Assembly: GCA_963575745.1 (NCBI GenBank) | Contig: CAUYUJ010001700.1 | Location: 26,001 to 90,000 of the forward strand | DNA from: Prorocentrum cordatum | Lineage: Eukaryota > Sar > Dinophyceae > Prorocentrales > Prorocentraceae | Reading direction: 5' to 3' | Length of the DNA: 64,000 nt | Part shown: positions 2,390 through 59,755 of the stretch, piece by piece | Layout of the letters: each line of letters starts with the position of its first letter | How positions within the stretch are numbered: the first letter of the stretch is position 1 | Notes under the pieces: generated by a model | Database searches by the model: none | The model's input: the letters and a program-made list of their open reading frames with translations, nothing else | What the model was told of the DNA's origin: nothing | Translations under genes and position numbers: made by a program

Positions 2390-4451
2390 GGACTGGGCAG
2401 ATGTGTGCGGTAAGGGCAAGCAGTACGAGTCGCCGTCGGAGTATTTCAACGAGCTCGAGGGAGTAGTGATCGAGGCGGCTTTGCAGGACTACATCTCACC
2501 ACCTGTGACGGGGAAAGGCGATGGCCCAGTGTTCGGAGATGAGACGGTGAAGCTGATTCAGACTAAACAGTACTGGCAGTACCAACTGGCAGCTCTTCCT
2601 GAAGGCGCAAGGTGGATGAGGACGCTATTACAGGAGCGGTTTAATGAAGCGGCGAATATTAGGGCAGCGGCGATCAGGAGCGAGAAGCGGCACAGGACGG
2701 CGGAGATGGCGGCAGTGGCAGAGAGAGCGGCAAGCCAAAGGAACCTAAGGCGCCTACACAACACCGTGAACAAGTTTGCACCCAAGCCTGCGGCACCCAT
2801 TGGAGCGGTGAAGGATCCAGCCACAGGCCTGCCATGCTTCGACGCAGTGGACGACCAGCGCGTGCGCATTCAGAGCATCTGTGACATATGCGAGGGCCAG
2901 GCGATGGAGCTAGACGCGCGCCCTCCCATGGTCGGCAGGAAGGAGCGCGACGACGGCAGGATTGGCAGCTACGACATGGCAGCGGCGAAGGCAAGCATCA
3001 TGGAGCTGCCCAATTTGAAGGGCGGTTCTACGCTCAGGTGGCCGTTGAGGGGCCCGCCTGGTGGTGCTGTTGCTGAATCTTGGAAGCTGGCGATCGACTC
3101 TCTTGCACCGCCCATCATGCAAGTCTTCAACGCAGCGCAGGCGCTGGGTGATGCCCCTCAGAGGTTCAAGGACGGCGACGCCATGCAGTTGCGTAAGCCG
3201 AAGGGTGACGGGTGTTCGGCGTCAAAAGGCTACGGGACCATCAACTTGGTCAGTCATGTGGGGAAAGCGCGCGCTAAGGTCACCACGCACGAGGCGGTGC
3301 GAGAAGTAGCACGCAATATTTCCCCGACGCAGTTTGGAGCCATGCCTGGGCGAGGTGCGCGGGGCGCAGTTGCAGTGGCAAGTGAAGTAATTGTTCGACA
3401 TCAGCGTGCCCATCGAGCCAGACGGCGTGGGCGCTCTTCTAAGCCCCCACCGATGCTGCTGGCGGTCCTCGCCGACATTGAGAAGGCGTTCGACGCGGTT
3501 CCCAGGGATAAGATTTGGGAGGCGTTGGAGGCGTTGCAAGTCCGCTGGGATGCGCGAGTTACACTGGAAGAGCTCCATGAAGGCATGTGCTACTTGTTCC
3601 GCGATGTGACGACGCACGAGCCAGTGGCGAGGATCAGGGTCAAGAAAGGTGCACGGCAAGGGGGAGTTGAGAGTCCTTGGCTTTTCGTGGCAGTCTATGA
3701 TGGGATAGTATATCGCATCTCGCACGAACTCCGCCAGCAGGAGGTCACGGCAGTCAGAGCATTCTTCGACCCCACGCTGAGGAAGCTCCGCAACAATGAC
3801 AGCCTGAAGGAGGAAGAGTGCGAGGAGATAGACGTGTCCCAGCTAAAGTTCCTGGACGACCTGCTCACGTTCGCTGAGATTGAGGAGTTTGACGATGCGT
3901 CCATCATTTTGGAGGTCTTGCAGGGTGAGATCTGCGGTGGAGGTATGCGAGTCAACCCCAGAAAGACGGAGTTGCTGCTCACGCCGTCGGGAATTGGGAG
4001 CAAGAAAAGGATGAAGGATATTCGAGCGCAGAACACCCGCATTGTGACGTGGGAGGAGGACGACTATTTCCCATTGCGCCCGCAGCCGTATGTGAAGTAT
4101 TCGGGCGTCCAGCTGTCGGCGACGGGCTCGCACCAGGGGGAGGTCACTAGTCGAATCAGGGCCGCCAACTCCACTCATTCTCGTCTGCTTCGTCGTGCTT
4201 TCAAGAGCGGGTTCAGCCCCAAGTTGAAGATCAGATTGTGGAAGGCCTTGGTGAGGTCAGTATGTCTGTATTGCCTGGAGATCAACAACCTCGCCAAGCG
4301 GGAGCTCAACAGGCTGGGGAGCTGGCAGGTGCAGAAGCTCCGCGGGTTGCTGCACTTTCCCGCCCACCTGCACAAGCAGACCAACCGCGAGATCAGGAAG
4401 CGAGCCCGCACGCCGACGGTCACAAAAGCACATTGCTGTTGCGAAGGTTGA
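2043..4451 (+). CDS. LINE A reverse transcriptase
   Basis: The frame opens with the last endonuclease motif (TTIDYVLVRR, then YMDHRPLEA) and continues into a non-LTR reverse transcriptase. Recognisable blocks are LADIEKAFDAVPRDKIW (motif A, with its Asp), GARQGGVESPWLF (motif B), QLKFLDDLLTF (motif C, FLDD instead of the usual F/YADD) and GMRVNPRKTELL (motif D), followed by a thumb region. The catalytic Asp residues are present. The frame stops at 4451 in the middle of the thumb/connection; the protein continues in another frame from about 4430, so a frameshift lies there. It would make the cDNA of the element if intact. Confidence 0.85.
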   Translation, partial: NGTWKSPQGGWTTIDYVLVRRQGGYGHSAHPRADLHVNLGGYMDHRPLEAQIYVGVKAKTVKEVGKFRWRRELMSADLLKVQQAEADLDNQEQLPKRALNFRLKVQEGLECKGLYEDWADVCGKGKQYESPSEYFNELEGVVIEAALQDYISPPVTGKGDGPVFGDETVKLIQTKQYWQYQLAALPEGARWMRTLLQERFNEAANIRAAAIRSEKRHRTAEMAAVAERAASQRNLRRLHNTVNKFAPKPAAPIGAVKDPATGLPCFDAVDDQRVRIQSICDICEGQAMELDARPPMVGRKERDDGRIGSYDMAAAKASIMELPNLKGGSTLRWPLRGPPGGAVAESWKLAIDSLAPPIMQVFNAAQALGDAPQRFKDGDAMQLRKPKGDGCSASKGYGTINLVSHVGKARAKVTTHEAVREVARNISPTQFGAMPGRGARGAVAVASEVIVRHQRAHRARRRGRSSKPPPMLLAVLADIEKAFDAVPRDKIWEALEALQVRWDARVTLEELHEGMCYLFRDVTTHEPVARIRVKKGARQGGVESPWLFVAVYDGIVYRISHELRQQEVTAVRAFFDPTLRKLRNNDSLKEEECEEIDVSQLKFLDDLLTFAEIEEFDDASIILEVLQGEICGGGMRVNPRKTELLLTPSGIGSKKRMKDIRAQNTRIVTWEEDDYFPLRPQPYVKYSGVQLSATGSHQGEVTSRIRAANSTHSRLLRRAFKSGFSPKLKIRLWKALVRSVCLYCLEINNLAKRELNRLGSWQVQKLRGLLHFPAHLHKQTNREIRKRARTPTVTKAHCCCEG

Positions 4452-6723: not shown

Positions 6724-6984
6724 GTTCTTCTTCTTCTTGGTGCTGTGGCATCCTGTGCCTGGGCATTCCGAGGATAGTGCTGCGCCGCGAGTGCGGTTGC
6801 GTTTCGTCGGGCCCCTCGCAGGACACCTCCGGCCGAGTCTTGTAGGGTGCAGCGCCGGAGAAGGAGAGGGAAGGCTGGCAGCAGGCGGCGGCAGCAAAAG
6901 TCCCCCCCGCCCAAAAGAGGCGGCATCGCTTTTGGGTTGCAGGGTTGCTGGGATCGGCCGCTGGGATCCGCCGTGCTTTGGCTG

Positions 6985-7981: not shown

Positions 7982-8018
7982 TCCGTAGCCATTTTGGCTC
8001 AAGCCATTTTGGCTCAAG
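7982..8018 (+). other. DinoSL plus tandem truncated DinoSL relic
   Basis: Positions 7982-8003 match the 22-nt dinoflagellate spliced leader exactly (TCCGTAGCC then ATTTTGGCTCAAG). Positions 8004-8018 repeat its last 15 nt, CCATTTTGGCTCAAG. In dinoflagellates the leader is added to mRNA by trans-splicing, so a genomic copy joined to a gene means that mature mRNA was reverse-transcribed and reinserted. A full plus a truncated copy implies two cycles. It lies about 120 bp before ORF1 of LINE B and marks that element's 5' end. Confidence 0.95.
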
Positions 8019-22592: not shown

Positions 22593-23655
22593 GTGGAGGG
22601 CCTGGTGGCTCTGCTGGCCGGCGGCGCCCCCGGCGCGCAGGAGCAGGCGGCGGGCGCGCTGGCCAACCTGGCCTGGGAAGACGCCGAGAACCGGCGCGCC
22701 ATCGGCCGGGCCCCGGGCGCCGTGGAGGGCCTGGTGGCTCTGCTGGCCGGCGGCGCCCCCGGCGCGCAGGAGCAGGCGGCGCGCGCGCTGGCCAACCTGG
22801 CCGCCGACGCCGAGAACCGGCGCGCCATCGGCCGGGCCCCGGGCGCCGTGGAGGGCCTGGTGGGCCTGCTGGCCGGCGGCGCCCCCGGCGCGCAGGAGCA
22901 GGCGGCGCGCGCGCTGGAACCTGGCCGCGACGCCGAGAACCAGCGCGCCATCGGCCGGGCCCCGGGCGCCGTGGAGGGCCTGGTGGCTCTGCTGGCCGGC
23001 GGCGCCCCCGGCGCGCAGGAGCGGCGGCGGGCGCGCTGGCCAACCTGGCCTGGGAAGACGCCGAGAACCGCGCGCCATCGGCCGGGCCCCGGGCGCCGTG
23101 GAGGGCCTGGTGGGCCTGCTGGCCGGCGGCGCCCCCAGCGCGCAGGAGCCGGCGGCGAGCGCGCTGGTCAACCTGGCCCACGACGACGCCGAGAACCGGC
23201 GCGCCATCGGCCGGGCCCCGGGCGCCGTGGAGGGCCTGGTGGCTCTGCTGGCCGGCGGCGCCCCCGCGCGCAGGAGCCGGCGCTCGCGCTGCAGAACCTG
23301 GCCGCCAACGACGCCGAGAACAAGCGCGCCATCGGCCGGGCCCCGGGCGCCGTGGAGGGCCTGGTGGCTCTGCTGGCCGGCGGCGCCCCCGGCGCGCAGG
23401 AGCAGGCGGCGGCGCGCTGGCCAACCTGGCCGGACGCCGAGAACCGGCGCGCCATCGGCCGGGCCCCGGGCGCCGTGGAGGGCCTGGTGGCTCTGCTGGC
23501 CGGCGGCGCCCCCGGCGCGCAGGAGCGGGCGGCGCTCGCGCTGCAGAACCTGGCCTGGGAAGACGCCGAGAACCTGCGCGCCATCGGCCGGGCCCCGGGC
23601 GCCGTGGAGGGCCTGGTGGGCCTGCTGGCCGGCGGCGCCCCCGGCGCGCAGGAGC
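22593..23655 (+). CDS. ARM-repeat array, block 1b
   Basis: This continues the same 126-bp units after the break at 22540-22590. Several units carry one-base or three-base losses, often at the boundary GCGCTGG(CC)AACCTGGCC, so the phase flips among frames. The block ends exactly at GCGCAGGAGCA (23655-23656 = CA), where TIR element 1 begins. The next host base after the element (31631) continues the repeat, in the same reading phase (AQE joined to [10 protein letters not shown]). Confidence 0.68.
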
Positions 23656-23656
23656 A

Positions 23657-23706
23657 CCCAGAGGCCCACGATCGTCATAATTATAGAGATTCTCTTTTTT
23701 TTTGGA
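23657..23706. repeat. TIR element 1, left terminal inverted repeat
   Basis: CCCAGAGGCCCA followed by CGTCATAATTATAGAGAT and a T run with GGAGT. It pairs with 31579-31628. AT-rich sequence with no gene follows to about 23950. Confidence 0.8.
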
Positions 23707-23960
23707 GTTAACTTCCACATATGTACGATTTAGGAGGTGGATTTTGGAGAATCTCTAAAATCTATCTCCTTATTCTATAATTTATGGTGATATCTCTTTA
23801 AAAATAGAGTTGCGTATCCATAATAAGGATATGGGTGTGCTTTCTACGATTATGGAGATAACTATCTCTAAAAGTTTGTATCGGCCCCTTCGGGTTCTAC
23901 AGATGAGTGTGAAAGGCGGATGGTCGCAAGACTAGGTATACGCATATTTTTATCACACGT

Positions 23961-25905
23961 CTACTCGAGGCCCTCGTCCTCGAAACAAAGAACAAGCCAC
24001 TTCACTAACAGCACGGAAGACATGGTATTGGGATGGAGGGCTCCAGCCGATTCAGTGCACAGCCCAACTAAGTCCTCGTCGCCATAGCACCAGTAGTAAG
24101 ACGCATTCCCCCATTCGGCTTGTTGCCACTCGCACGAATGCTCGACTAGGTGAGCTTTCGGGGTCAATTTCCACATCCTTTCGTTATTTTCTAGAGCATC
24201 GTTATGAAGCCAGTGGTAATACAGGCCAATCTTACGGCCCACATCTGCAAGCTCATCTTTCACATCATCAGGATAAAACATTGGATTGTTCGCCATGATC
24301 TCGTAAAGTTTCAATACTTCCTTACATAGTGCGAGCCTCATTTCGTCGTGGGTTGAGCCAGTGTTGAAACGCCTGCAAAGGTCTACCAAGTAAGGTGTAA
24401 GATGCCGAGCGCCCGCCCCTTTAGCTTTTAATTTTGGGTATTGCCCATCCTCCCGAATTCTGGTTGCAGTTAGTTTTCCCCTCAGCCTGGATGTGATTTT
24501 TTCTCGTTTGTAAAAGTCGTCTAGGTCACGGGCCAAACGCGCCGTGTTCTCTTCAATGTTCCGTCCGTGAAACACGCGTCGTCGAATACACTCCCAGAAA
24601 ACATTTCCCGCGATATGCATCTGCAGACCCAGGTCCATCGCGTGTAATATGTCTATCATCACACAACTTAATTTTAGACCTACAACTTGTCTGAACAAGA
24701 CTGGGATTGGTTTCCCCTGCTCGGTCAAGTAATCCAGGTAACCTTGGTGGGTCTCCTTGGTATCCCTCCACCCCGCGCCAGGGCCAAAATCGGTCCAAAA
24801 CAAAGCTGGGTTTGTGCTGGATGCCTTACACATCCAACACATTCGGTCAGCCCCCTGCCAAGATGGAATGTGCAGCACCTCTGCGTAAAATTGCCAATCA
24901 CCCCTTATTTGTACTAAACAACCGCGCCATTTGCCAGCTATACGAGGTCGAGTGGCACCATCACTTAGAAGCTTGTTTCCTGACCAATCGACCGCAGGCA
25001 TCGCGCCAGACAACAGTGAATTCATTGACCAACTGAAAACAGCCCAGATGGCATCCAACGTCATTGTCGTGTAAAGGCTTTTCGAAATAATCGTGAAAAT
25101 GAATCTCTTTCGTCTGGTATTGCCCCTGCCGAGTAAACTATTCCAGGACAGCACTAGAATAGATTCCTGTTTGTTGCAGGACCCTGCGTCTCCATGCAGT
25201 CCGAGTGGGATCGTTCGACCCCAGTCTTCCTCCTCGGGAGGGGGAGGGACAAAAGAGAGAGGGGGGGTGAAGAGGGGAAGAGCGAAGGAAACGAGGACGG
25301 GTGCGAAGGGGGTCAACGATATGAAGACCGCTAGCGCATTCTGATAAACGACTGCAAGGGTCCTTGAGATCTGGATGCTCCTGGACAAAGCTCGTGTGTC
25401 TGACTGCTCGCCAGTACTCCTCGCAAGAACCTGGCGGGCCAGCGACGCATGCGTGCCAAATGTCCCTCCGATCTGAATGCAGACACGAGAAAAGCGAATG
25501 AGGCAGGATGAATGGATGTGGTACCATCCCCTTTGTAGTCGGGATGTTGTAATACACGATATTCGGAGCTCCAGCTGGTTTCCCGAAGAGTCCAAGCAAG
25601 GCTCGTTGAATATGCTGAGGCCTTTGCCCAGAAGCTCCAGCCGCCGCTAAAGCATCTAACTTTTCGGCGCCCTGAGCCCGAGCATTCATCGCATAGTCTT
25701 GGACTTGCCGCGAATTTATTTTTCCAGTCGCCCAGTCTCGCTTGAGAACAGAAGTAAAAGGTAGCGGAGCCGCCTCAGACGCATCGTCATGCGATGCTTC
25801 CTGAACCCTCCTTCGGAGGGAGTTCGTGCTGGAAACGCCAGTGGAGGCCTCGTCGGGGCCCTCGAAATCTGCGCGTTCCAAGTGCTGAGAAATGCGACGC
25901 TTCAT
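23961..25905 (-). CDS. Conserved dinoflagellate multicopy protein, likely two exons
   Basis: The start ATG is at 25905, 38 nt after a double DinoSL relic. Exon 1 (about 25905-25350) carries IPTTKGMVPHPFILPHSLF and EEYWRAVRHTSFVQEHPDL. Exon 2 (about 25230-23961, in another frame) resumes at GRTIPLGLHGDAG and continues through LVLSWNSLLG, GDWQFYAEVLHIPSW, CWMCKASSTNP, DILHAMDLGLQMHIAGNVFW, WKLTPKAHL and YYWCYGDEDLVG to a stop at 23961. The intervening 120 or so bases are C/T-rich in the gene's sense, as in an intron's 3' part. I recall this motif series as a very large unnamed dinoflagellate family with the copy number of a transposon gene. Its biochemical function is unknown; a transposase role is a guess. 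Confidence 0.72.
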
Positions 25906-25942
25906 CCAAACATTGAGTAAGCAACGTGTGGGCTAGAACTGG

Positions 25943-25980
25943 TTTGGAGCCAAACTGGTTTGGGCCAAAATGGATACGGA
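25943..25980 (-). other. Double DinoSL relic upstream of the 25905 gene
   Basis: On the minus strand, 25980-25959 matches DinoSL at 19 of 22 positions (TCCGTATCCATTTTGGCCC...). A second truncated copy, CCAGTTTGGCTCC, follows at 25958-25943. From 25981 to 26462 I see no gene. Confidence 0.85.
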
Positions 25981-26462
25981 GATGGACCAGATTCGAATGC
26001 CAGATCGGAAGCCCACTTGGGAGCGCAATCGTGTCAATGACTGGCAGCGTTAATCAAATGTGTTTCGTCGAAGAGTGTTTGCGTGCAAAGTCGTTTTTAT
26101 GTTTGTTTATGGTCGTGAGCATGTTTTCGGCTGGAAGAAATGATACTTGCGCGATGCTCGTTTTTTCTTCGTTCCGGGCCTCTCCCGAAAAGCACCTCGC
26201 TCCTGGTGTTGATGTTTCCCCCACCTGGGACTCCAATTCTAAACGCCCTGTTTGTTGTTCTATTCAATGTCGTTTGTTCGTTTTTTTGTACTCGTGAAAG
26301 CCTCGTGATGCATCGAACTTGTGAAAACGTCGCATCGCTAGGGTGGACCGCTGCGCTCGCCACGACATCACACCCAGAATAGCTCAACACAACGAAACGC
26401 ATGCCTCAGTCGCTCGTCAGGCGAGCGACCTATGTAAATTCTCCGTGGCAAAACAACCCTGC

Positions 26463-27398
26463 TCAACTCTTGCGCCTGCGCTTGACGGCCTTCTCGATCA
26501 GCCCGAACTTGGTCGCCCACTCCTCGATGTCACGCTGCTCTTTCTCGAGCTTGGCCATTGTCTCCACGAGCTGTTTCAAACCCGCGCTCTCTGGCTCCCC
26601 CCCCCCGACGATCTGGTCGATGATCTTCACAACCTTGTTCAAGCTGGACAAGTGTTTCTTCATCGCGTCATGAAGGTTCTCCGCGTACTTGGTATCTCCA
26701 GCTTTGTTGATCAAGCACTTGGTGGTGGTGACGAAGTCCTGAAATTTCCTCAGGATTGGTTGGGGGTTGTTCTTTATCTCCTCAACCTTCTCCTTCGTGA
26801 GCTCAGCCTTGCTCTTGGGCTCAATCTTGACCTGCCCCCCCTCGGGCTTAGCTGAAGAGGCTGGCTCCCCGTCTGCCAAGGCGGCCAAGTCGTCGAGGTC
26901 GCAGTTGGCCGCTTCTACCGTCGATCCGACCCTGACGTCCGTCTTGTCACCCTTCGCATACCTCGTCATCTCGCGAGGCACTCTGTATTCTTTCAGAGGG
27001 TCCTCGTTGCTGCCTGTCAGCGGATCAGGCCTAGTGAGGAGCTTGCCGCTCTGCCGCCACGCCTTGCTTTTCTCGATCCCCAGCTCCTTGTCCATGGTCT
27101 CCAAGCTCCACCAGAAGAACAAGCTGTTATCCTGCTTCTCGGAGGTCATCTGGCGCTCCACGGTCCGCTCCTTCTTCGCCTTCTTGTCCCGCATCTGCAG
27201 AGCGAGGAAATTCACCAAGAAACGCTTGCGGTCATCGCCACGACTGCTCGACGCGCCGTCGTCGTCCTCCGAAGGGTTCTTTTTCAACCAGGCGACCATG
27301 CAGCCCATCTTGGAACGCAGGCCTTTCTGATCCTCGATCATCTTTCTAGCCGCCTCCACCTCCTGGGCAGAGGGTTTCACATCCGAAAGCTTGCCCAT
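26463..27398 (-). CDS. Hypothetical charged protein (312 aa) of TIR element 1
   Basis: I chose the ATG at 27398 (MGKLSDVKPSAQEVE) because a DinoSL relic sits 64 nt upstream; the frame is open further but would translate the relic itself. The protein is rich in Lys/Glu, with FLVNFLALQMRDKKAKKE and FFWWSLETMDKELG near the N-terminal third, an acidic middle, and long helical segments that end in the basic tail EKAVKRRRKS. No catalytic motif is recognised. It lies between two other genes of the same strand, and its intact 312 codons suggest past selection. It might be a nucleic-acid or protein-binding partner of the element, but nothing proves this. Confidence 0.7.
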   Translation of the reverse strand: MGKLSDVKPSAQEVEAARKMIEDQKGLRSKMGCMVAWLKKNPSEDDDGASSSRGDDRKRFLVNFLALQMRDKKAKKERTVERQMTSEKQDNSLFFWWSLETMDKELGIEKSKAWRQSGKLLTRPDPLTGSNEDPLKEYRVPREMTRYAKGDKTDVRVGSTVEAANCDLDDLAALADGEPASSAKPEGGQVKIEPKSKAELTKEKVEEIKNNPQPILRKFQDFVTTTKCLINKAGDTKYAENLHDAMKKHLSSLNKVVKIIDQIVGGGEPESAGLKQLVETMAKLEKEQRDIEEWATKFGLIEKAVKRRRKS

Positions 27399-27462
27399 GG
27401 CGCGTGGCCGCTGCGAGCTGGCTAGCGCGCGCGTGCGACGGAGGTGCGCCTCGTGCAGGCTA

Positions 27463-27484
27463 GTTGAGCCAAATTGATTACGGA
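27463..27484 (-). other. DinoSL relic upstream of the 27398 gene
   Basis: The reverse complement of these 22 bases begins TCCGTAATCA and ends TTTGGCTCAAC, matching DinoSL at 18 of 22 positions. Confidence 0.82.
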
Positions 27485-27642
27485 CGTGAGCCTCGTGAGG
27501 CCTCATGGGCCCCTTGAGACATCATTAGACGCCAGAGGTCTGCACGTTGCACTTAGCGCCCCCTGGGCGTACCGCAAATGAGAAATCGACACCAACCCGG
27601 CCCTGGGGGCCGGAACCAGGCCCTGGGGACCGGAAGGGGCAC

Positions 27643-27786
27643 GTCAAAAAGTCAAAAAGTCAAACAGTCATTTTTTGACTTTTTGACTTTTTGACTTTGT
27701 TTTTTTGTGAGTGTTTCGAGGATTTGGGCAGTCAAAAAGTCAAAAAGTCAAAAAATGGCGTTTTGACTTTTTGACTTTTTGACTTC
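27643..27786. repeat. Two GTCAAAAA / TTTTTGAC hairpins
   Basis: GTCAAAAA direct repeats are followed by TTTTTGAC repeats (27643-27697), and the pattern recurs at 27731-27786. Each half folds on itself, and the halves also pair with each other. They lie in the spacer between two genes of TIR element 1. Confidence 0.9.
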
Positions 27787-28197
27787 CCCCTTTGGGTTAT
27801 CGGGGTCGCGCTCTGGGTTCCCAGGGTCGAGTCCCAGCAACGCGGGTGGATCTGGTTTCGTTTGGGCCAGCGTTGGCCTCGTTGTTGGGGCGAGCGATTC
27901 CGTAGAGGGCGATTTCGTTTTAAATTCGTTATGCGTTCGTCTTATGTTCGTCTTAGTTTCATTTTTTATGTTCGTCTTATTCGAACGAGCGCGAGACAAA
28001 TGTGGTTGTTTTCTGGATCTTGGGAAGCCTTTGGGGAGCCTTTGTTTTTCCATCTTTCCAGCTCAGCCTCGAAAAATACCACACTCCTGGTTGCGCGTTT
28101 TCCCCACCAGTGAGCCTCTTGGAGCTAGTTTTAATGTCTATCGAAGGCTGCTTTGGGGGCCTCTGTTGTACCTTGCGGGGCCTCAGTTGCCACTTCC

Positions 28198-28242
28198 GAG
28201 GGTTAAAACTGAGGCCAAACTGGGGCCTCAGTTTTAACCCTC
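28198..28242. repeat. Perfect 19-bp inverted repeat
   Basis: GAGGGTTAAAACTGAGGCC, a 7-base spacer, then its exact reverse complement. It is a strong hairpin in the spacer at 27787-28330, which has no supported gene. Confidence 0.9.
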
Positions 28243-28334
28243 AAGCGGGCCAGGTCACCGATGGCCATGGCGCCGTTTGTGGACGTACGCTGTCCTTTCA
28301 TCTGATCGCTCCTGATCGCTCCTCCTCCCCCCCC

Positions 28335-28441
28335 TCCTCAAGAGAACCAGGCGAGCCTTGATGGGGCCCGAGCCCGCACAACTTTTACATACAATTGTCC
28401 GCCTCCTCCTCCTCCTCCTCCTCCTCCTCCTCCTCCTCCTC
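28335..28441. repeat. 62-bp direct repeat plus TCC tract, copy 1
   Basis: A 62-bp block (28335-28396), from TCCTCAAGAGAACCAGG to ACTTTTACATACAATT, is identical to 29368-29429. In both places a TCC tract follows at once. Confidence 0.9.
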
Positions 28442-28797
28442 ATCGCCAGATTCACTCAAGCTGACCCTGGGAATGACTGGAATGAGAAGGCACAGCCGCA
28501 GCATGCAATTCATTTTCCGACTTAGTAGATGTCGCAGACGCCCTGCGCAACCCTCCCCGCAGAACGTCGAAATCTGCTGCATCGCTGGTCTTGCCAGTTG
28601 GACAAGCTCAAACTCGCTTGAAATCGGCAGCTCGCGCAAGCATGGCCAGGGGACAAGGGGGAACGAGAGCATGGGACACATGGCGTGTCTTTGCAGACAG
28701 CACTTGGTCCAGTCCGCCGCCCGAAGCAAACAAACAATACGTTGGAAGAGAGTGGGAGGGAACATGAGCTGAGAGACGGCGCGACTGCTGGCGAGGC

Positions 28798-29298
28798 TCA
28801 CTTTCTGCTACTCTTTTTGATGATGCGACGCTTCTTCGGAGGCTCGGACTTCTCTGGTTCCTCGTCCTCCTCGTCGGAGGTCTCGTTGAATTTCGCTGCG
28901 AGCTTCTTCAAGCTGCCGAACTCACGTGCGCAGTGCTGGGTGATCGTTGCCACTTCAAGGCTAGGGTCCGACCGACGATTATCTGCCTGGAGCGGTTCTA
29001 ACTTCGATAAGTTGCACGTGATCATGACGATGAGGTCATCGATGCCTTTCAAGAGGTCATTCGTGTGTGGATGCGCTGGAATGCGAGCAAGCCAACCTCC
29101 CGCAACAGTTTTCATGTTCTCGAGGGTCTCGAGCGCATCTCCAAAGTCGAACCCTTCATGGCTGCCGCGTGGAGAAGGGCTATCCTCCACCACTGGTACG
29201 TCGTGTACTGCCGATCCATCTCGTGGGGAAATTTCCCCAGCTGGGCCCAGGCGAAACGCCCGTCCTGTGTAAAACGGGATGTCTGGTTGGCTAGACAT
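28798..29298 (-). CDS. Small hypothetical protein (166 aa) of TIR element 1
   Basis: The ATG at 29298 opens MSSQPDIPFYTGRAFRLG. A helical middle (FDFGDALETLENMK, LLKGIDDLIVMITCNLSKL, CAREFGSLKKLAAKFNE) leads into an acidic patch (SDEEDEEPEK) and a strongly basic tail (PPKKRRIIKKSSRK) that resembles a nuclear-localisation signal. No family is recognised. The last 12 nt of DinoSL lie 39 nt upstream. Two identical 62-bp repeats bracket the gene, which raises the possibility that it was duplicated or captured as a unit. Confidence 0.65.
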   Translation of the reverse strand: MSSQPDIPFYTGRAFRLGPAGEISPRDGSAVHDVPVVEDSPSPRGSHEGFDFGDALETLENMKTVAGGWLARIPAHPHTNDLLKGIDDLIVMITCNLSKLEPLQADNRRSDPSLEVATITQHCAREFGSLKKLAAKFNETSDEEDEEPEKSEPPKKRRIIKKSSRK

Positions 29299-29337
29299 GT
29301 TCTGCTGGTGCCGAGGGCACTGGCAGCCCGATCGCGC

Positions 29338-29359
29338 CTTGAGCCAAACAGCTCTGGCA
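29338..29359 (-). other. DinoSL relic (3' half) upstream of the 29298 gene
   Basis: The reverse complement ends TTTGGCTCAAG, the exact last 11 nt of DinoSL; the 5' half has diverged. It is weaker than its neighbours, but its position is the same. Confidence 0.6.
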
Positions 29360-29367
29360 GCAGTGGG

Positions 29368-29470
29368 TCCTCAAGAGAACCAGGCGAGCCTTGATGGGGC
29401 CCGAGCCCGCACAACTTTTACATACAATTTTCCTCCTCCTCCTCCTCCTCCTCCTCTTCCTCCTCCTCCT
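29368..29470. repeat. 62-bp direct repeat plus TCC tract, copy 2
   Basis: Identical to 28335-28396 over 62 bp, then TCC triplets. The following 29520-30223 shows no supported gene. Confidence 0.9.
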
Positions 29471-30223
29471 ACAGGACCCTGCACGAAAAGTCTGACCGAA
29501 CGCCATTCTTGATGCATGGCGATGCTCGCTGCGCTACCTGATGAAAACTGATGCGCCATGCGGGAGGTCGTCTGAGTCCGCTGGTCGGAGTATGAGTGAA
29601 TCAGATGTCTAGACACATCGGCGCATAGGAACGCGTGTTGTGTACGTGTGGGGAAGTGCGTGCATGAGTGAGTGCGTGAACGGGTCTAGTTTGCAGTGAG
29701 TCTGAGTATGAATGGGCCTCAGAAAGGGGGCTCCCAAATGAGACACCCCCTCCTTGCGGGCAGTCGGATATGCTTAGTTTGTTTCCTTGCCTGGAGGTTA
29801 CTGCGTAGAGCCTCGATGGTCCCCTGTAGAGAGCCCCAGGGATCCCCGTGCTAAACAAAAATCCCTGTGCTGAGCAAACAATGCTTGCACTTGCTGTAAA
29901 AGCTCGGCAAGACAGGGATGTGTACTGAGAAGGCCAGAATCAGTAGGAGCGATACCATGGGAAAAGGCCGCCTGAGAGTCATGCTGTTTGGAGCTCCGAC
30001 GGGCACTACATCTGCTGCTTGCTCTGCATGTATGAGGTTGTTGTTTTGTTTGAAGGGCACTCTGGAACACTCTGAGGCAATGCCATCTGGATCAGAGTGG
30101 GCTCGCATCGGAGCCCGCAAAAAACTCAAGCGATATTGCGAAGAAATGCGTATGTATTAAATGCTGGCGGAGATAGTAGCAGATGCATCGACATAGCAAT
30201 GAAAGTGCCAAGGCGTCTGGAAA

Positions 30224-31300
30224 TCAATCACCGCCTCCGTATTTCCCTTTGAATCGATCCATCACAGTTTTAGTAGCTTGGCTTGCTCTTTGACTCACCA
30301 TGTCATCAGCCATTTCAGCTTTTCTGCAACGATCTCTCTCTCTGTGCCAGATAATCGAGTGAAGTCTCTTGTACTGTGTCTTGTAGGGCTGGCTTTCCGT
30401 GGGCTTGTATCTCTCGAACAACTCATCGATGGAAATCTCCTCACCAGGTGAACATGCTGCTGGTCTTTTCCGAGCCTTCTCCACCTTCGCACCTGGCTTT
30501 TGCGGTTTGACGTCAAGGGCAGCCTGCATCAGATCAACTTTGCCTTTCGGCGTCGTTCCGCAGGGTTCCTCGGCATCATCAGCAGCAGGTTTCTTCATGG
30601 GACTTCCTTCGGCCCCGTCAGCAGCTGAACTGGACTGTGTGATATGTCCTGCGCCATGGGCTGCAACCTCCTTGGAGCCGCTGGTCGAAGCACGCGCCCT
30701 TGGGAAAACAGCTGCTTCCAGTTGTTCGAAATCGATCTCCCCTATGTTAGTTCCCGAACAAGAGCTGGGCGAAACGCATGTGCTGGACACAGAGATTGCA
30801 AGAGCCCTCTTCTTTCTGGGTGGTGATACTGCCTCAACGTCGCTGCTGCCGTTCTCCTCATTATCGCTGTCATCTCCGTCCACAACAATTGTCTGTAGCA
30901 GAGCCGATAACGGCTTGTACGCTGTCGGCGGTTCCTTCCCAGATTTGGTCGAAGCCCGTTTGAAATCTCGCAGGTGCGACATCATGTTACGAAGTCTGTA
31001 CGATATTACCTCACAGTCTGGGTGGGTGACCCGCACATTGTTTTTATTGTAATAAGTGTGCAACTGAAGGCAGAATGTTTTGTGTTTGAGCATGCGTCCA
31101 CCCGTTAGCTGAAATATGTCGGTGAGAGCTTGGCGATTCTTTTTGATTCCAGGCCAATCGACGCTCTTTTTTTTGTCATTTGGACTTCCCTTCGCATACT
31201 GAAATATTGCTTTCAGCGGGCTCCCAACATTCACGTTCGAATCGAAGAATTGGTTTGCTTCGACATCAGAAATCTCTTTTCCAGTAAGTCGTGGAGGCAT
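30224..31300 (-). CDS. Hypothetical protein (358 aa) of TIR element 1
   Basis: The ATG at 31300 (MPPRLTGKEISDVEANQFF) follows a DinoSL relic by 7 nt; an upstream in-frame start would translate that relic. The N-terminal 120 residues look globular (FQYAKGSPNDKKKS, VDWPGIKKNRQALTDIFQL, HTYYNKNNVRVTHPDCEV). A Ser/Asp-rich linker with PPRKKRALA follows. The C-terminal part has EEISIDELFERYKPTES, then basic helices ending in MDRFKGKYGGGD. No catalytic motif is recognised. It is the first gene of the minus-strand series, next to the right-hand end of the element. Confidence 0.7.
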   Translation of the reverse strand: MPPRLTGKEISDVEANQFFDSNVNVGSPLKAIFQYAKGSPNDKKKSVDWPGIKKNRQALTDIFQLTGGRMLKHKTFCLQLHTYYNKNNVRVTHPDCEVISYRLRNMMSHLRDFKRASTKSGKEPPTAYKPLSALLQTIVVDGDDSDNEENGSSDVEAVSPPRKKRALAISVSSTCVSPSSCSGTNIGEIDFEQLEAAVFPRARASTSGSKEVAAHGAGHITQSSSAADGAEGSPMKKPAADDAEEPCGTTPKGKVDLMQAALDVKPQKPGAKVEKARKRPAACSPGEEISIDELFERYKPTESQPYKTQYKRLHSIIWHRERDRCRKAEMADDMVSQRASQATKTVMDRFKGKYGGGD

Positions 31301-31307
31301 GAATCTT

Positions 31308-31329
31308 GCTGAGCCAAAACGGCTGCGGA
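31308..31329 (-). other. DinoSL relic upstream of the 31300 gene
   Basis: The reverse complement begins TCCGCAGCCG and continues TTTTGGCTCAGC, matching DinoSL at 18 of 22 positions. Confidence 0.82.
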
Positions 31330-31578
31330 AAGGAACGGCGACAAGGCCAATGACAAACCGCGTGAGGGGTGTGCCGAAATACATGGAGGAAGCATGCGAA
31401 CGTCACCACTGGGGCCCTCGATGGAGCTCCATTGGGGGGTCATGAACCGCGTGAGGGGTGTGACGAAATTGGCGGCGTAGACGCATGCGACCGCTGCCAC
31501 TGGGCCTTCGGTGGAGTTTACTGTGGGGTCACGGCATATCTCTATATTTTATATTTTGGAGTTGCGTTTGTGGCATGA

Positions 31579-31628
31579 CTCCAAAAATAAAGCATTTCCA
31601 TAATTATGACGCTGGATGGGCCTCTGGG
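31579..31628. repeat. TIR element 1, right terminal inverted repeat
   Basis: Ends ATAATTATGACG...TGGGCCTCTGGG, pairing with 23657-23706; CA and the ARM array follow immediately. Near 31360-31510 a block GTGTG.CGAAAT...GCATGCGA..G is repeated twice about 83 bp apart. Confidence 0.8.
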
Positions 31629-32266
31629 CAGGCGGCGGGCGCGCTGGTCAACCTGGCCCACGACGACGCCGAGAACCGGCGCGCCATCGGCCGGGCCCCG
31701 GGCGCCGTGGAGGGCCTGGTGGCTCTGCTGGCCGGCGGCGCCCCCAGCGCGCAGGAGCAGGCGGCGCGCGCGCTGGCCAACCTGGCCGTCAACGACGCCG
31801 AGAACCAGCGCGCCATCGGCCGGGCCCCGGGCGCCGTGGAGGGCCTGGTGGCTCTGCTGGCCGGCGGCGCCCCCGGCGCGCAGGAGCAGGCGGCGCTCGC
31901 GCTAAGAAACCTGGCCGTCGACGACGAGAACCAGCGCGCCATCGGCCGGGCCCCGGGCGCCGTGGAGGGCCTGGTGGCTCTTCTGGCCGGCGGCGCCCCC
32001 GGCGCGCAGGAGCAGGCGGCGGCGCGCTGGCCAACCTGGCCTGGGAAGACGCCGAGAACCGGCGCGCCATCGGCCGGGCCCCGGGCGCCGTGGAGGGCCT
32101 GGTGGCTCTGCTGGCCGGCGGCGCCCCCGGCGCGCAGGAGCGGGCGGCGCTCGCGCTGCAGAACCTGGCCTGGGAAGACGCCGAGAACCGGCGCGCCATC
32201 GGCCGGGCCCCGGGCGCCGTGGAGGGCCTGGTGGGCCTGCTGGCCGGCGGCGCCCCCGGCGCGCAG
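31629..32266 (+). CDS. ARM-repeat array, block 2
   Basis: About five ARM units of the same 126-bp type ([18 protein letters not shown] and so on) lie between TIR elements 1 and 2. Its first roughly 180 bp are identical to the start of block 3 at 41035. Small indels (for example VDDENQ for VNDAENQ, and a lost base near 32010) shift the phase within the block. It ends at GCGCAGGAG, exactly where TIR element 2 begins. Confidence 0.7.
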
Positions 32267-46567: not shown

Positions 46568-46589
46568 TCCGCGGCCGTTTGGGCTCAAG
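46568..46589 (+). other. DinoSL relic before a gag-like pseudogene
   Basis: The 22 bases begin TCCGCGGCCG and end TTTGGGCTCAAG, matching DinoSL at 18 of 22 positions. Confidence 0.8.
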
Positions 46590-57581: not shown

Positions 57582-59755
57582 AGGCCAGGCTCGCTAAGGC
57601 GGGCAGAGCTGCGCGGCGCCTAGTGCGGCAGGCTAAGGTACTTACTCGGTCTACGTCCTTGAAGGTATTCTCTGCTGGCCCCCTGGTGGGGGCCTCATAC
57701 GGTACCGAAGTCACGGGCATAATCGATCATGACCTTAGCTTGCTGCGCCGTCGCCTTTTTAGTGTTGTGCGCCCGCACAGTCGGCTGAGGTCCCTCACGG
57801 TCCTCGCCCTGCTGGACAATGACCCGACATGGCGATCGACCACCGCTCCCATTCTTAGATGGAGTAAGGAGATCTGGCTCATACAGACAGGCGCGTTCAG
57901 CTGGGCTATCCCTCTGCCCACGTTGAAGTCTGCCTGGGCCGCCATCTTTTCTGACCCCAGCTGCAGCTGGAGGAAGGTTGCGGGACCGATCACTGCCATG
58001 AGGAGGTCTCTGGTCAGATTAGGGTGGAGTATGCCTAACTTCATGACCCTGGTCGGCAATTCCGGGAAATCTATCCCCCTCGGGATCTTCTCGCCCGCTC
58101 TCGTTGGGTCCCTGGTCCGTGCGGGTTTTCTGCGAGTTTTGGAAAGAGATGCTGCTGCCAGGAGGGGCATCTCTTACCGTCTTTGTTATGACGTTGCCAA
58201 GGAGGCTATCGCTCCCCGTAGTAAGCGCTTCACGGCCCTTCAGAAGGCTAGGATTAGAGCCTTCTCTACGGAGGCCATTTTGACTCGGGCTCGAGCCAGG
58301 GCCCTCGGGTACGACATTGATCCGTGTTGTGTCCACTGCGGGGCCAACGACACCATCTTCCATCGGCTTTGGGAATGCCCTCTCCCCGAGGCTGCTTCAG
58401 CTCGGCTTGAGGCTACTGACAGTGAGGTGCTTGAGGCCGCTCTGTCTGCTAAGGCGTCTGGAGATGATGACGAGCTGTTGGTCTTTATATATGGTGCTTT
58501 TCGGCACCCCGCCGACTCCTTCCCTCGGACTGTTGATGAGCAAGGTGATGGTCCGACCCTGGTCTGGCACAAGATGCCCGATTTTGACCCTGGAGGTGCC
58601 CCCGTCAGCAACAGAGCGTGGGGCTCCTTATTTGTTGATGGCTCGTGCTCCCGTCACGCTGTCAAGGAGCTCTCTCGTGCTGGCTCCTCAGCCTGCATGG
58701 TCGACGAGTCGGGAGATCTTGTGGCTGAGCTGAGGGCCCCTGTTTGGGGCCCCTACCCTCAGACCCCCCAGAGTGCTGAATTCAGTGCGTTCACCTGGGC
58801 CAATGTTCTGGCGACCCATCCTGCTGAATGCCATGTGTATTCTGATTGCAGTAATGTGGTCCAGACTGCGGGTCTCGCTAAGCAGATTCAGCTCTCGCCA
58901 AAGCGCATGTATGCTGGGGCTTTTCTTCAGGTGCACGGTCAGGTCTCGGGGATAGCTGCCTGCTCCAAGGTGGCCGCCCACCTCGACGTGGACGCTCCAG
59001 GGATTTCTGCCGAGGAGCGTTGGCGTCTTCTCGGCAACTACCATGCGGATGTAGGGGCTAAGTTTGCGGTCCGCCTCCATCCTACGGATGACTCTCTTCT
59101 GCAGGAGGCCGACCACCTTGTGGCCTTAGCGAGGGCCACCTTGAAGGTTGCGGTGCATGTGCCCCCCGCATGGCCTCCTGTGGACCTTGATGGGGCCAGC
59201 AGACTCCCCGTGGTGCAAAACCCGAGGAAAGAGGTGCGTGGGCACGACTGGAGGTCGTGGGGCGGAGTCTGGAGGTGCGCTCACTGTTTGAGGGGGAAGC
59301 GTTCCCATTCGAAGCCAGCTCCAGGTTCCTGCTCTAGGTCCTCTCTTGTCCACGCTGACTCTCAGGACGCGCTAGGCCATCGGACTGTGGCCTTTCCGTG
59401 TTCTGATAACTCTGTTCTCTTTATTTGTCTTAGATGTAAATGTCTCACGTGTGGTGGGCACATTCGTGGACTCAGCAAACAGTGTATTTCGGTCCCTTCG
59501 CGTGCGTGCAAGCAGGGTTGGGATTATGTGTGCAAAGGCCTCCACCCTAGGTATCAGTTGCGTATTGCTGGCGTCACGGTGGACACCGAAGGCCTGATTC
59601 AGTGTTTCAACTCTGAAGCCGCACTTGCCGCCCTTGCTGAAGGTACTTCCGAGGTGCCTGCGCATGAGGAGCGGCAGGAACCCCAACAGTCGCGACAACT
59701 CACCCCTTCTTTCCTGGCGAGACGCCGCCAGGATGAGTCGGATAGTTCTGATTGA
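57371..59755 (+). CDS. LINE C ORF2, thumb, zinc knuckle, RNase H and C-terminus
   Basis: The frame opens just after the C8 slip (MALDSVVQEVFGCSFALEET). The thumb/connection is followed by the zinc knuckle CVHCGANDTIFHRLWEC. RNase H follows: LFVDGSCSRHAV (Asp), SAEFSAFTWA (Glu), VYSDCSNVV (Asp) and GNYHADVGAKFA (Asp), all acidic positions present. A C-terminal Cys cluster (WRCAHCLRG, FICLRCKCLTCGG) and an acidic end (DESDSSD, stop at 59753-59755) close the protein. The same C-terminal design in LINE B shows that this end is conserved in the family. Confidence 0.85.
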   Translation: MALDSVVQEVFGCSFALEETAIVSSSKCVGSQVLSRISHLCQRCTGSAVNLGVDYSAGRAVRVAGRSAKMKARLAKAGRAARRLVRQAKVLTRSTSLKVFSAGPLVGASYGTEVTGIIDHDLSLLRRRLFSVVRPHSRLRSLTVLALLDNDPTWRSTTAPILRWSKEIWLIQTGAFSWAIPLPTLKSAWAAIFSDPSCSWRKVAGPITAMRRSLVRLGWSMPNFMTLVGNSGKSIPLGIFSPALVGSLVRAGFLRVLERDAAARRGISYRLCYDVAKEAIAPRSKRFTALQKARIRAFSTEAILTRARARALGYDIDPCCVHCGANDTIFHRLWECPLPEAASARLEATDSEVLEAALSAKASGDDDELLVFIYGAFRHPADSFPRTVDEQGDGPTLVWHKMPDFDPGGAPVSNRAWGSLFVDGSCSRHAVKELSRAGSSACMVDESGDLVAELRAPVWGPYPQTPQSAEFSAFTWANVLATHPAECHVYSDCSNVVQTAGLAKQIQLSPKRMYAGAFLQVHGQVSGIAACSKVAAHLDVDAPGISAEERWRLLGNYHADVGAKFAVRLHPTDDSLLQEADHLVALARATLKVAVHVPPAWPPVDLDGASRLPVVQNPRKEVRGHDWRSWGGVWRCAHCLRGKRSHSKPAPGSCSRSSLVHADSQDALGHRTVAFPCSDNSVLFICLRCKCLTCGGHIRGLSKQCISVPSRACKQGWDYVCKGLHPRYQLRIAGVTVDTEGLIQCFNSEAALAALAEGTSEVPAHEERQEPQQSRQLTPSFLARRRQDESDSSD

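Follow-up and report, generated by a model that had tools for sequence, protein, structure and literature searches.

A Prorocentrum cordatum element with terminal inverted repeats and genes headed by DinoSL-like leaders

The 64,000-nucleotide stretch of Prorocentrum cordatum DNA analyzed here (the window) contains a 7,972-bp element with terminal inverted repeats (TIRs) at positions 23657-31628, which carries four genes, g1 to g4. These ends bound a unit that is mobile in its entirety; deeply diverged subfamilies have the gene set and most of the leaders in common, and the leaders found show far more conservation than neutral evolution would leave. On balance, the sequence comparisons favor an autonomous TIR transposon of a large, diverse family with conserved g1-g4, in which each gene forms its own unit under a genome-encoded leader that would derive from retroposition and would then have been maintained. 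The features, in window coordinates, are the following.

23655..23656, no strand: target-site duplication CA, g4 side; matching 2-bp flanks in 5/5 copies
23657..23684, plus strand: terminal inverted repeat, g4-side end; extended end pattern, 10 genome-wide sites
23961..25232, minus strand: g4 exon 2, core of the putative transposase; homologues 38-100% identical, invariant acidic residues
25233..25362, minus strand: probable g4 intron, 130 nt, read as GA...AG from alignment to intronless relatives
25363..25905, minus strand: g4 exon 1; 35-62% identity with uninterrupted g4 proteins in their N-terminal parts (frame 25905-25138)
25947..25979, minus strand: g4 DinoSL-like leader (18/21) with truncated second copy; homologous relic in L018
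26463..27398, minus strand: g3, 311 aa; homologues (27-54% identity) directly precede g4 in the arrays
27463..27483, minus strand: g3 DinoSL-like leader, 17/21
28335..28437, no strand: 103-nt direct repeat, copy 1; 97% identical to 29368-29470
28798..29298, minus strand: g2, 166 aa; homologues 24-41% identical
29338..29348, minus strand: g2 DinoSL-like leader, last 11 nt only, exact; ties the shuffle maximum
29368..29470, no strand: 103-nt direct repeat, copy 2; 97% identical to 28335-28437
30224..31300, minus strand: g1, 358 aa; at least 88 genome-wide matches
31308..31328, minus strand: g1 DinoSL-like leader, 17/21
31600..31628, minus strand: terminal inverted repeat, g1-side end; CCCAGAGGCCCA match, end alignment and extended end pattern
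31629..31630, no strand: target-site duplication CA, g1 side; matches the CA at 23655..23656

The first-pass annotation had described inverted ends with a CA duplication, and both are borne out. The sequence CCCAGAGGCCCA occurs exactly at 23657-23668 (plus strand) and 31617-31628 (minus strand), with no other exact match in the window, and the similarity of the ends extends past it as CGTCATAATTAT and further (29 nt, 83%). The CA dinucleotide stands on both flanks, and the tandem repeat broken by the element resumes beyond its far end. The 4.13-Gb genome holds five complete copies, 0.16-0.43% apart, with identical ends and unrelated flanks, which upholds the annotation's view of a DNA transposon. 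TIRs bound all five, as in class II elements, and each copy has a 2-bp target duplication: CA in the window, GC (L039), CA (L040), AC (L041) and AG (L042). All four ORFs are open in 4/5 copies; g2 is frameshifted in L042. A failure of the ends to recur had been named as evidence against the annotation's reading, and they do recur: the strict extended end pattern has exactly 10 sites in 4.13 Gb, corresponding to two ends of five copies, and none in the reversed control. The bare 12-mer CCCAGAGGCCCA was rejected as a diagnostic end, as it has 6,073 exact genome-wide matches versus 827 in the reversed control; the eight 12-mer loci inspected are without the look of element ends.

Multi-gene TIR DNA transposons such as En/Spm-CACTA, MuDR and KDZ combine TIRs and a short target duplication with a large conserved ORF and accessory ORFs. 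The element shares this organization; unlike them, its ends start CCCAGAGG, it shows no Pfam transposase domain and each gene has its own leader copy. Membership in the CACTA (En/Spm) superfamily, whose termini are CACTA/CACTG, was considered and rejected on the CCCAGAGG termini and on the absence of a Pfam Tnp2-type domain from the window frames and four relatives. Reverse transcriptase, the domain that would mark a retrotransposon, is absent from the element's five proteins scanned against Pfam.

The four genes lie on the minus strand, as annotated earlier, with ATGs at 31300 (g1), 29298 (g2), 27398 (g3) and 25905 (g4). In a correction to that annotation, g4 proves not to be one continuous open frame: a 130-nt stretch (25362-25233) interrupts it and reads as an intron. 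This stretch is found in all five copies, 130 nt long in each, and also in the older copy L018, where its first two bases are GG; when it is left out, the g4 protein can be aligned to relatives that have no intron. The eight other arrays all have g4 as one uninterrupted ORF. The probable transposase is g4, on the grounds of its position, its conservation and its acidic residues. Ten g4 proteins share the invariant residues D214, D310, D392, D398 and D583-E584-D585. The window frames and four relatives gave no Pfam match for g4 (weak hits only), and the PDB search gave no match, or only matches with E above 1; the single-sequence structure model (mean pLDDT 33.5) is too poor for a fold search. 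Among the element's proteins, none is above the Pfam cut-offs, the best being g3 against Frigida (E 0.0056, 16.5 bits versus a cut-off of 25.7).

The subfamilies, 40-72% identical in g4, have homologues of the same genes in mostly preserved order. Genes found independently of the ends had also been named as contrary evidence; instead, the genes travel together, and at 44 of 77 merged g1 loci a scored g4 follows in the same orientation, 5.0-8.6 kb downstream. These counts come from 114 scored of 3779 g1 candidates, with at least 88 genome-wide matches, and from 80 scored of 5050 g4 candidates within this genome. Other subfamilies have related ends beginning CCCAGAGG, and paired ends with 2-bp duplications are seen in 3/6 further subfamilies examined (AA, CA, CA); C15422 has a better-matching end candidate without a target duplication. 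Altogether, nine arrays and further g4 subfamilies were observed, each with up to four leader-headed genes.

The leader is normally added by the cell only to RNA; here, DNA copies head four transposon genes, one copy being partial. The 21-nt DinoSL core is matched at 17/21 before g1 (31328-31308) and g3 (27483-27463) and at 18/21 before g4 (25979-25959), where a truncated second copy follows. Before g2, the match is confined to the final 11 nt, which are exact, at 29348-29338. In first-order Markov-shuffled sequence, about zero sites of at least 17/21 are expected per 64-kb strand. Over 150 nt upstream, g1, g3 and g4 beat all 300 shuffles and g2 merely ties the best. The earlier claim of a DinoSL-like sequence before each gene is sound for g1, g3 and g4 (17-18/21) and weak for g2.

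Across the family, the 150 nt upstream of 28 of 32 array genes contain a DinoSL-like sequence better than any of 300 shuffles. The best shuffle outscores C14595 g2 and C20710 g2 and equals window g2 and C20710 g3. The 32 genes omit C5202 g1 (beside an N run) and C15422 g2, C20857 g1 and C20857 g3 (not found), and four start positions in the test are set off an ATG or are not known. A set of 30 g4 loci, which includes many near-duplicates, shows a match of 14/21 or better in 29 cases and a decayed homologous relic in the 30th; 21 of these 29 leaders precede the ORF's first ATG by 31-71 nt. Fifty g4 places lie outside these loci, of which 10 were set aside as look-alikes and 20 of the other 40 were read. 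In these 20 further 5′ regions, 17 score at least 12, with control scores of 10 or less, and no leader was found at L061, L068 and L071.

Such enrichment bears on the explanation that nothing here is specific to transposons, in which most single-exon genes of the genome carry leaders and the elements follow the rule. It draws on the 48,069 genome-wide leader-like sites with up to 3 mismatches (121 in the reversed control), on other leader-headed long ORFs of the window and on a perfect tandem leader in one of eight arbitrary 3-kb loci. However, the genome has one site of at least 18/21 per 86 kb, whereas the coding strand of the eight arrays (97 kb) has 19 sites of at least 17/21 and the opposite strand 2. 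Published relic frequencies, taken as the yardstick from the portions of those reports consulted, reach at most about a quarter of genes, and we regard this explanation as improbable.

The comparison with neutral decay is based on 48 leaders, namely those found, omitting near-duplicate loci, L061, L065, L068, L071 and C14595 g2. Fourfold sites are near saturation in 7/8 subfamily pairs (24-38% identical), whereas the 48 leaders keep 13-21 of 21 positions (62-100%). This contradicts a single ancestral capture, in which the four genes went through one retroposition and left relics that persist passively and decay neutrally; despite the g4 relic of the window having a homologous relic in L018 (83% nucleotide identity), inherited with the element, such a history is very hard to credit. 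The leaders seem to be kept for use rather than as mere leftovers, because distant relatives in the same genome retain leader-headed genes. Conservation is uneven by position; 0/20,000 permutations reach this degree in the full set of 48, and a set trimmed to 39 gives p 0.001. This unevenness may partly reflect mutational bias, with 98 transitions and 73 transversions.

Ongoing refreshing is a further alternative, unlikely in our judgment and yet the most serious of the three. Element mRNAs would be reverse-transcribed by host retroelements and recombine into the copies, with the 22-nt relic as 5′ homology arm and decay between renewals. Consistent with it, the leaders are too close to the canonical sequence for old neutral relics, the C20857 g4 leader is perfect, and g4 is uninterrupted in the eight other arrays. 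Window g4 and C14595 g1 clearly have truncated tandem copies, and C20857 g4 has a weak, though possible, one. This genome has 3,890 sites with a leader plus a truncated relic, and recycling is therefore common in it. Steady renewal, however, predicts many perfect leaders and overdispersion; 1/48 is perfect, and the variance of match counts is 2.92 versus 2.76 expected, an argument weakened by selection on visible match, which trims the low tail; related subfamilies, moreover, are not independent of one another. No recognizable second copy stands behind 45 of the 48 leaders. The other three reach a second-relic score of at least 7 (13, 10 and 8), as do 2% of control stretches, so that about one is expected by chance; the mean excess over all 48 (p 0.001) has these three cases as its top scores. 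The uneven conservation and the relic common to close relatives, as in the window and L018, also speak against refreshing. Constant conversion of the genes by their own cDNAs, suggested in the first-pass annotation, is thus possible but disfavored, and maintained leaders from retroposed mRNAs are the favored reading.

The annotation's other suggestion, assembly from retroposed trans-spliced mRNAs, survives as an account of origin, given the two clear and one weak second copies and a strong similarity that is confined to the leader itself when the 48 are aligned. Recent self-assembly by the window element does not, as the gene set and leaders are shared by deeply diverged subfamilies. On the contrary side, a few flanking columns lean to one base as well, with T at -1 (25 of 48), T at -3 (24), C at 22 (26) and C at -12 (25), and 10/48 leaders have C at position -1, for which DinoSL offers T, A or G. 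Under the maintained-leader reading, an ancestor would have gained genes, or new 5′ ends for them, through retroposition of trans-spliced mRNAs, and some individual genes may later have gone through retroposition again. The leader would now be retained as a working 5′ module of the gene: as a start site with a TTTT-type promoter, as a ready-made leader, or as a trans-splice acceptor whose internal TAG is preceded by a pyrimidine-richer stretch. The whole unit would move as DNA via g4, and the leaders would therefore be copied by transposition, not by new retroposition. We tentatively suggest that working 5′ modules are written in the transposon DNA, so that the element moves as DNA with genes headed like mature trans-spliced mRNAs. 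With comparable caution, such heading may provide each gene with a portable promoter, splice acceptor or ready-made leader, together with 22 nt of 5′ homology for renewal by its own cDNA.

Dinoflagellate mRNA recycling, with retrogenes carrying DinoSL relics, was described by Slamovits and Keeling (2008), as related in parts of PMC6050394, PMC12014239 and PMC3229502. In the sections consulted, relic rates are about 20-25% of genes or transcripts, and 0.7-2.3% of full-length transcripts in Polarella. Like those retrogenes, as far as these sections describe them, the genes here have a relic just upstream of the start codon and, in 2-3 of 48 cases, a truncated second copy without the first nucleotides; unlike them, the relics here sit on a conserved gene set inside a DNA transposon, would be copied when the DNA transposes and are more conserved than neutral decay would allow. 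Intron loss relative to a parent gene is a further mark of such retrogenes, and window g4 itself has a probable intron. Retrogenes are counted by their relics; should leaders on transposon genes be multiplied by DNA transposition, such counts may include some that stem from transposition rather than retroposition. The consulted literature also proposes that the DinoSL relic has promoter activity of its own (TTTT box), and the family offers a multi-copy natural experiment on this proposal. The element would join DNA transposition and RNA-mediated gene renewal in one unit, and a literature search of titles and abstract openings found no such element among the matches listed.

Leader-headed ORFs elsewhere in this genome are, by their motifs, presumably non-LTR-like. 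They share the 5′ leader copies, which in their case are perfect and tandem (window 7983, L003). In an RNA-copied element a leader is expected, whereas the TIR element moves with TIRs and 2-bp duplications. Within the window, long ORFs outside the element are also leader-headed, the perfect tandem leader at 7983 being an example.

The element (window 23657–31628) interrupts a GC-rich tandem-repeat array, the encoded units of which we take to be of the armadillo type. The dinucleotide CA flanks both inverted ends and the uninterrupted form of the site is visible in the adjacent repeat units, in agreement with the CA duplication proposed in the first-pass annotation. The four minus-strand genes described there, each with a DinoSL-like sequence upstream (the leader, scored as matches to a 21-nt core), were also recovered:

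Start 31300, minus strand: g1 ORF, leader of 17/21 upstream
Start 29298, minus strand: g2 ORF, last 11 nt of DinoSL upstream
Start 27398, minus strand: g3 ORF, leader of 17/21 upstream
Start 25905, minus strand: g4 ORF, leader of 18/21 upstream, plus a truncated second copy

A probable 130-nt intron (GA...AG) lies in g4 at 25233–25362 (minus strand). It is found in the window subfamily and at the related locus L018 (with GG there) and is absent from the related g4 genes compared, so it was probably gained inside a transposon. A 103-nt direct repeat (97% identical), adjoining TCC/GGA runs, flanks g2 at 28335–28437 and 29368–29470. Inverted TGACTTTTTGACTTTT repeats are clustered between g2 and g3 (27643–27785), and a similar motif occurs in contig C14595 near position 6900 in the array direction.

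Genome-wide searches covered the 4.13-Gb assembly of 21,875 contigs. The search with the g4 frame returned four more copies with 99% protein identity, which align to the window over the full span between the outermost bases of the two ends; outside that span they share with it just the duplicated dinucleotide or, by chance, a few bases. Divergence among the five copies is 0.16–0.43%. Four of them keep g1–g4 open; in the fifth, L042, g2 is frameshifted. One copy (L039) carries about 0.8 kb of extra A/C-rich low-complexity sequence between g2 and g3. Matching dinucleotides flank every copy (CA, GC, CA, AC, AG), and a stricter end pattern occurs exactly 10 times in the genome, these being the two ends of each of the five copies (reversed control, 0). 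The element is therefore a complete unit that has been moving recently. The DNA-transposon reading had been made to depend on the recurrence of the inverted ends and on the genes not being independent of them; the ends recur and the genes are found together, and neither check refuted the reading. Movement with 2-bp duplications is observed for the unit. The mover would be g4, probably a transposase, which would carry the whole unit between its TIRs and create the duplications; g1–g3 are conserved proteins.

The wider family is diverse. In the g4 search, 80 genes were scored among 5,050 candidates, with identity from 100% down to 38%. Close variants of CCCAGAGGCCCA terminate several subfamilies, and the subfamily around C15612 terminates in CCCCAACGCTT instead. 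Six subfamilies were examined for paired ends with 2-bp duplications, and three had recognisable ones: C16977 (AA), C14595 (CA) and C15422 (CA; another end candidate matched better there, without duplication). Of the other three, C5202 and C18687 yielded no such pair and C20710 only a poor candidate. Eight arrays beyond the window were assembled from overlapping fetched stretches, each within a single contig. The genes, where found, are homologous across arrays, with identities of 25–34% (g1), 24–38% (g2), 27–53% (g3) and 40–72% (g4) in one comparison; a second one added more matches. The order g1-g2-g3-g4 is found in the window, C18687, C16977, C20710 and C14595, and C15612 has g2-g1-g3-g4. 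The C5202 g1 is a partial match adjoining a run of N, g2 was not found in the C15422 array, and in C20857 a g2-like match lies behind g4, with neither g1 nor g3 found upstream. In a separate g1 search, 44 of 77 merged loci had a g4 5.0–8.6 kb downstream on the same strand, counted only among the 80 scored genes; the remaining 33 may have an unscored g4. DinoSL-like sites also lie about 150–180 nt inside the g4-side end in C18687 (L025, oriented 11851, 18/21) and C16977 (L021, oriented 11172, 17/21), with no gene recognised behind them.

A leader of at least 14/21 is present at 29 of 30 g4 loci, a set that includes many near-duplicates; it lies 31–71 nt before the first ATG of the ORF in 21 of the 29 and 74 nt before it in the five window-subfamily copies, and the ORF is cut short at the 5′ end in three. 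The thirtieth, L018, has a decayed homologous relic. A further 20 g4 5′ regions were aligned locally: 17 reach a score of 12 or more (controls at most 10), one of them, L065, with its leader some 480 nt away from the protein match; L061, L068 and L071 failed. Across the nine arrays including the window, a leader within 150 nt upstream outscores all 300 shuffles in 28 of 32 genes, ties the best shuffle at window g2 and C20710 g3, and fails at C20710 g2 and C14595 g2. Detailed examination of 48 leaders showed strong similarity only within the leader itself; outside it the strongest leanings to one base are to C directly behind the leader (26 of 48), to T at −1 and to C at −12 (25 each) and to T at −3 (24). 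Position −1 is C in 10 of the 48, whereas DinoSL has T, A or G. Leader copies are common in this genome, with 48,069 sites within 3 mismatches (one per 86 kb) against 121 in the reversed control, and 3,890 sites of leader plus truncated relic, likewise within 3 mismatches, against 0. They are nevertheless clustered at the array genes: in the eight arrays outside the window (97 kb), 19 sites of at least 17/21 lie on the coding strand and 2 on the other.

The age of the genes bears on how the leaders were kept. Fourfold sites of g4 are 24–38% identical in seven of eight subfamily pairs, near chance, and the proteins are still 44–73% identical, which indicates purifying selection on the genes. 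The eighth pair, C15422/L034, is closer (72% fourfold identity), and g1 and g3 show a milder form of the trend (27–46% in five pairs). The 48 leaders read keep 13–21 of 21 positions (mean 17.4). Judged from these near-saturated silent sites, passive inheritance from one event cannot explain their retention. Renewal from cDNA can, and a truncated second copy, read as a mark of mRNA re-splicing and re-integration, is clearly seen at C14595 g1 and window g4 (scores 13 and 10) and weakly at C20857 g4 (8), with about one of the 48 expected to reach 7 by chance. The C20857 g4 leader is perfect, and recycled leaders are frequent in the genome. Selection can also explain the retention. In its favour, the C20857 g4 leader is the only perfect one of the 48, the mismatch counts give no sign of mixed ages (variance 2.92 against 2.76 expected, p 0.37), and conservation is uneven: positions 11, 12, 15 and 18 stand at 94% or more, position 9 at 65% and position 21 at 50%. 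None of 20,000 permutations was as extreme, and p is 0.001 once nine rows and the four end positions are removed. Selection may act alongside occasional renewal. In the earlier proposal, retroposed mRNAs as the origin of the genes gain support from the second copies, and repeated conversion by the element's own cDNAs is possible but less likely. A splice-acceptor AG is kept at positions 5–6 in 33 of 48, at 20–21 in 22 and at either in 40, and pyrimidines make up 63% of the 12 nt upstream vs 53% downstream; such hints of a leader in use are weak but agree with one another.

Every gene would be expressed on its own, from a 5′ end headed by a leader, and retroposed mRNAs would bring in new gene copies or replace old ones. 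Such entry or replacement would account for the altered order in C15612 as well as for an extra leader-headed ORF in C20710 (L049). This array has two additional leader-like sites between g1 and g2 (oriented 2986 and 4522), the first followed by that 289-aa ORF (3058–3927), perhaps a further array gene. The leader would allow an arriving copy to be expressed at its landing site, as is proposed in the literature for host retrogenes. Passages in PMC6050394, PMC12014239 and PMC3229502 place DinoSL relics in about 20–25% of genes or transcripts and propose a promoter role, whereas in two Polarella isolates one relic is carried by just 0.68% and 2.31% of the full-length transcripts (PMC7245778). 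Among the open-licence papers listed for dinoflagellate transposons together with spliced leaders or DinoSL, no title or abstract opening describes such elements.

Outside the element, window 7983–8018 (plus strand) holds a perfect DinoSL and, after it, a 15-nt truncated copy without mismatch, ahead of long ORFs that carry a Cys-rich motif, and L003 has a perfect tandem leader too. Taken with a stretch at 58574–59755 that is putatively RNase-H-like by its motif, these may be heads of non-LTR-like retroelements. A further DinoSL-like site (17/21) is located at 46569–46589 (plus strand).
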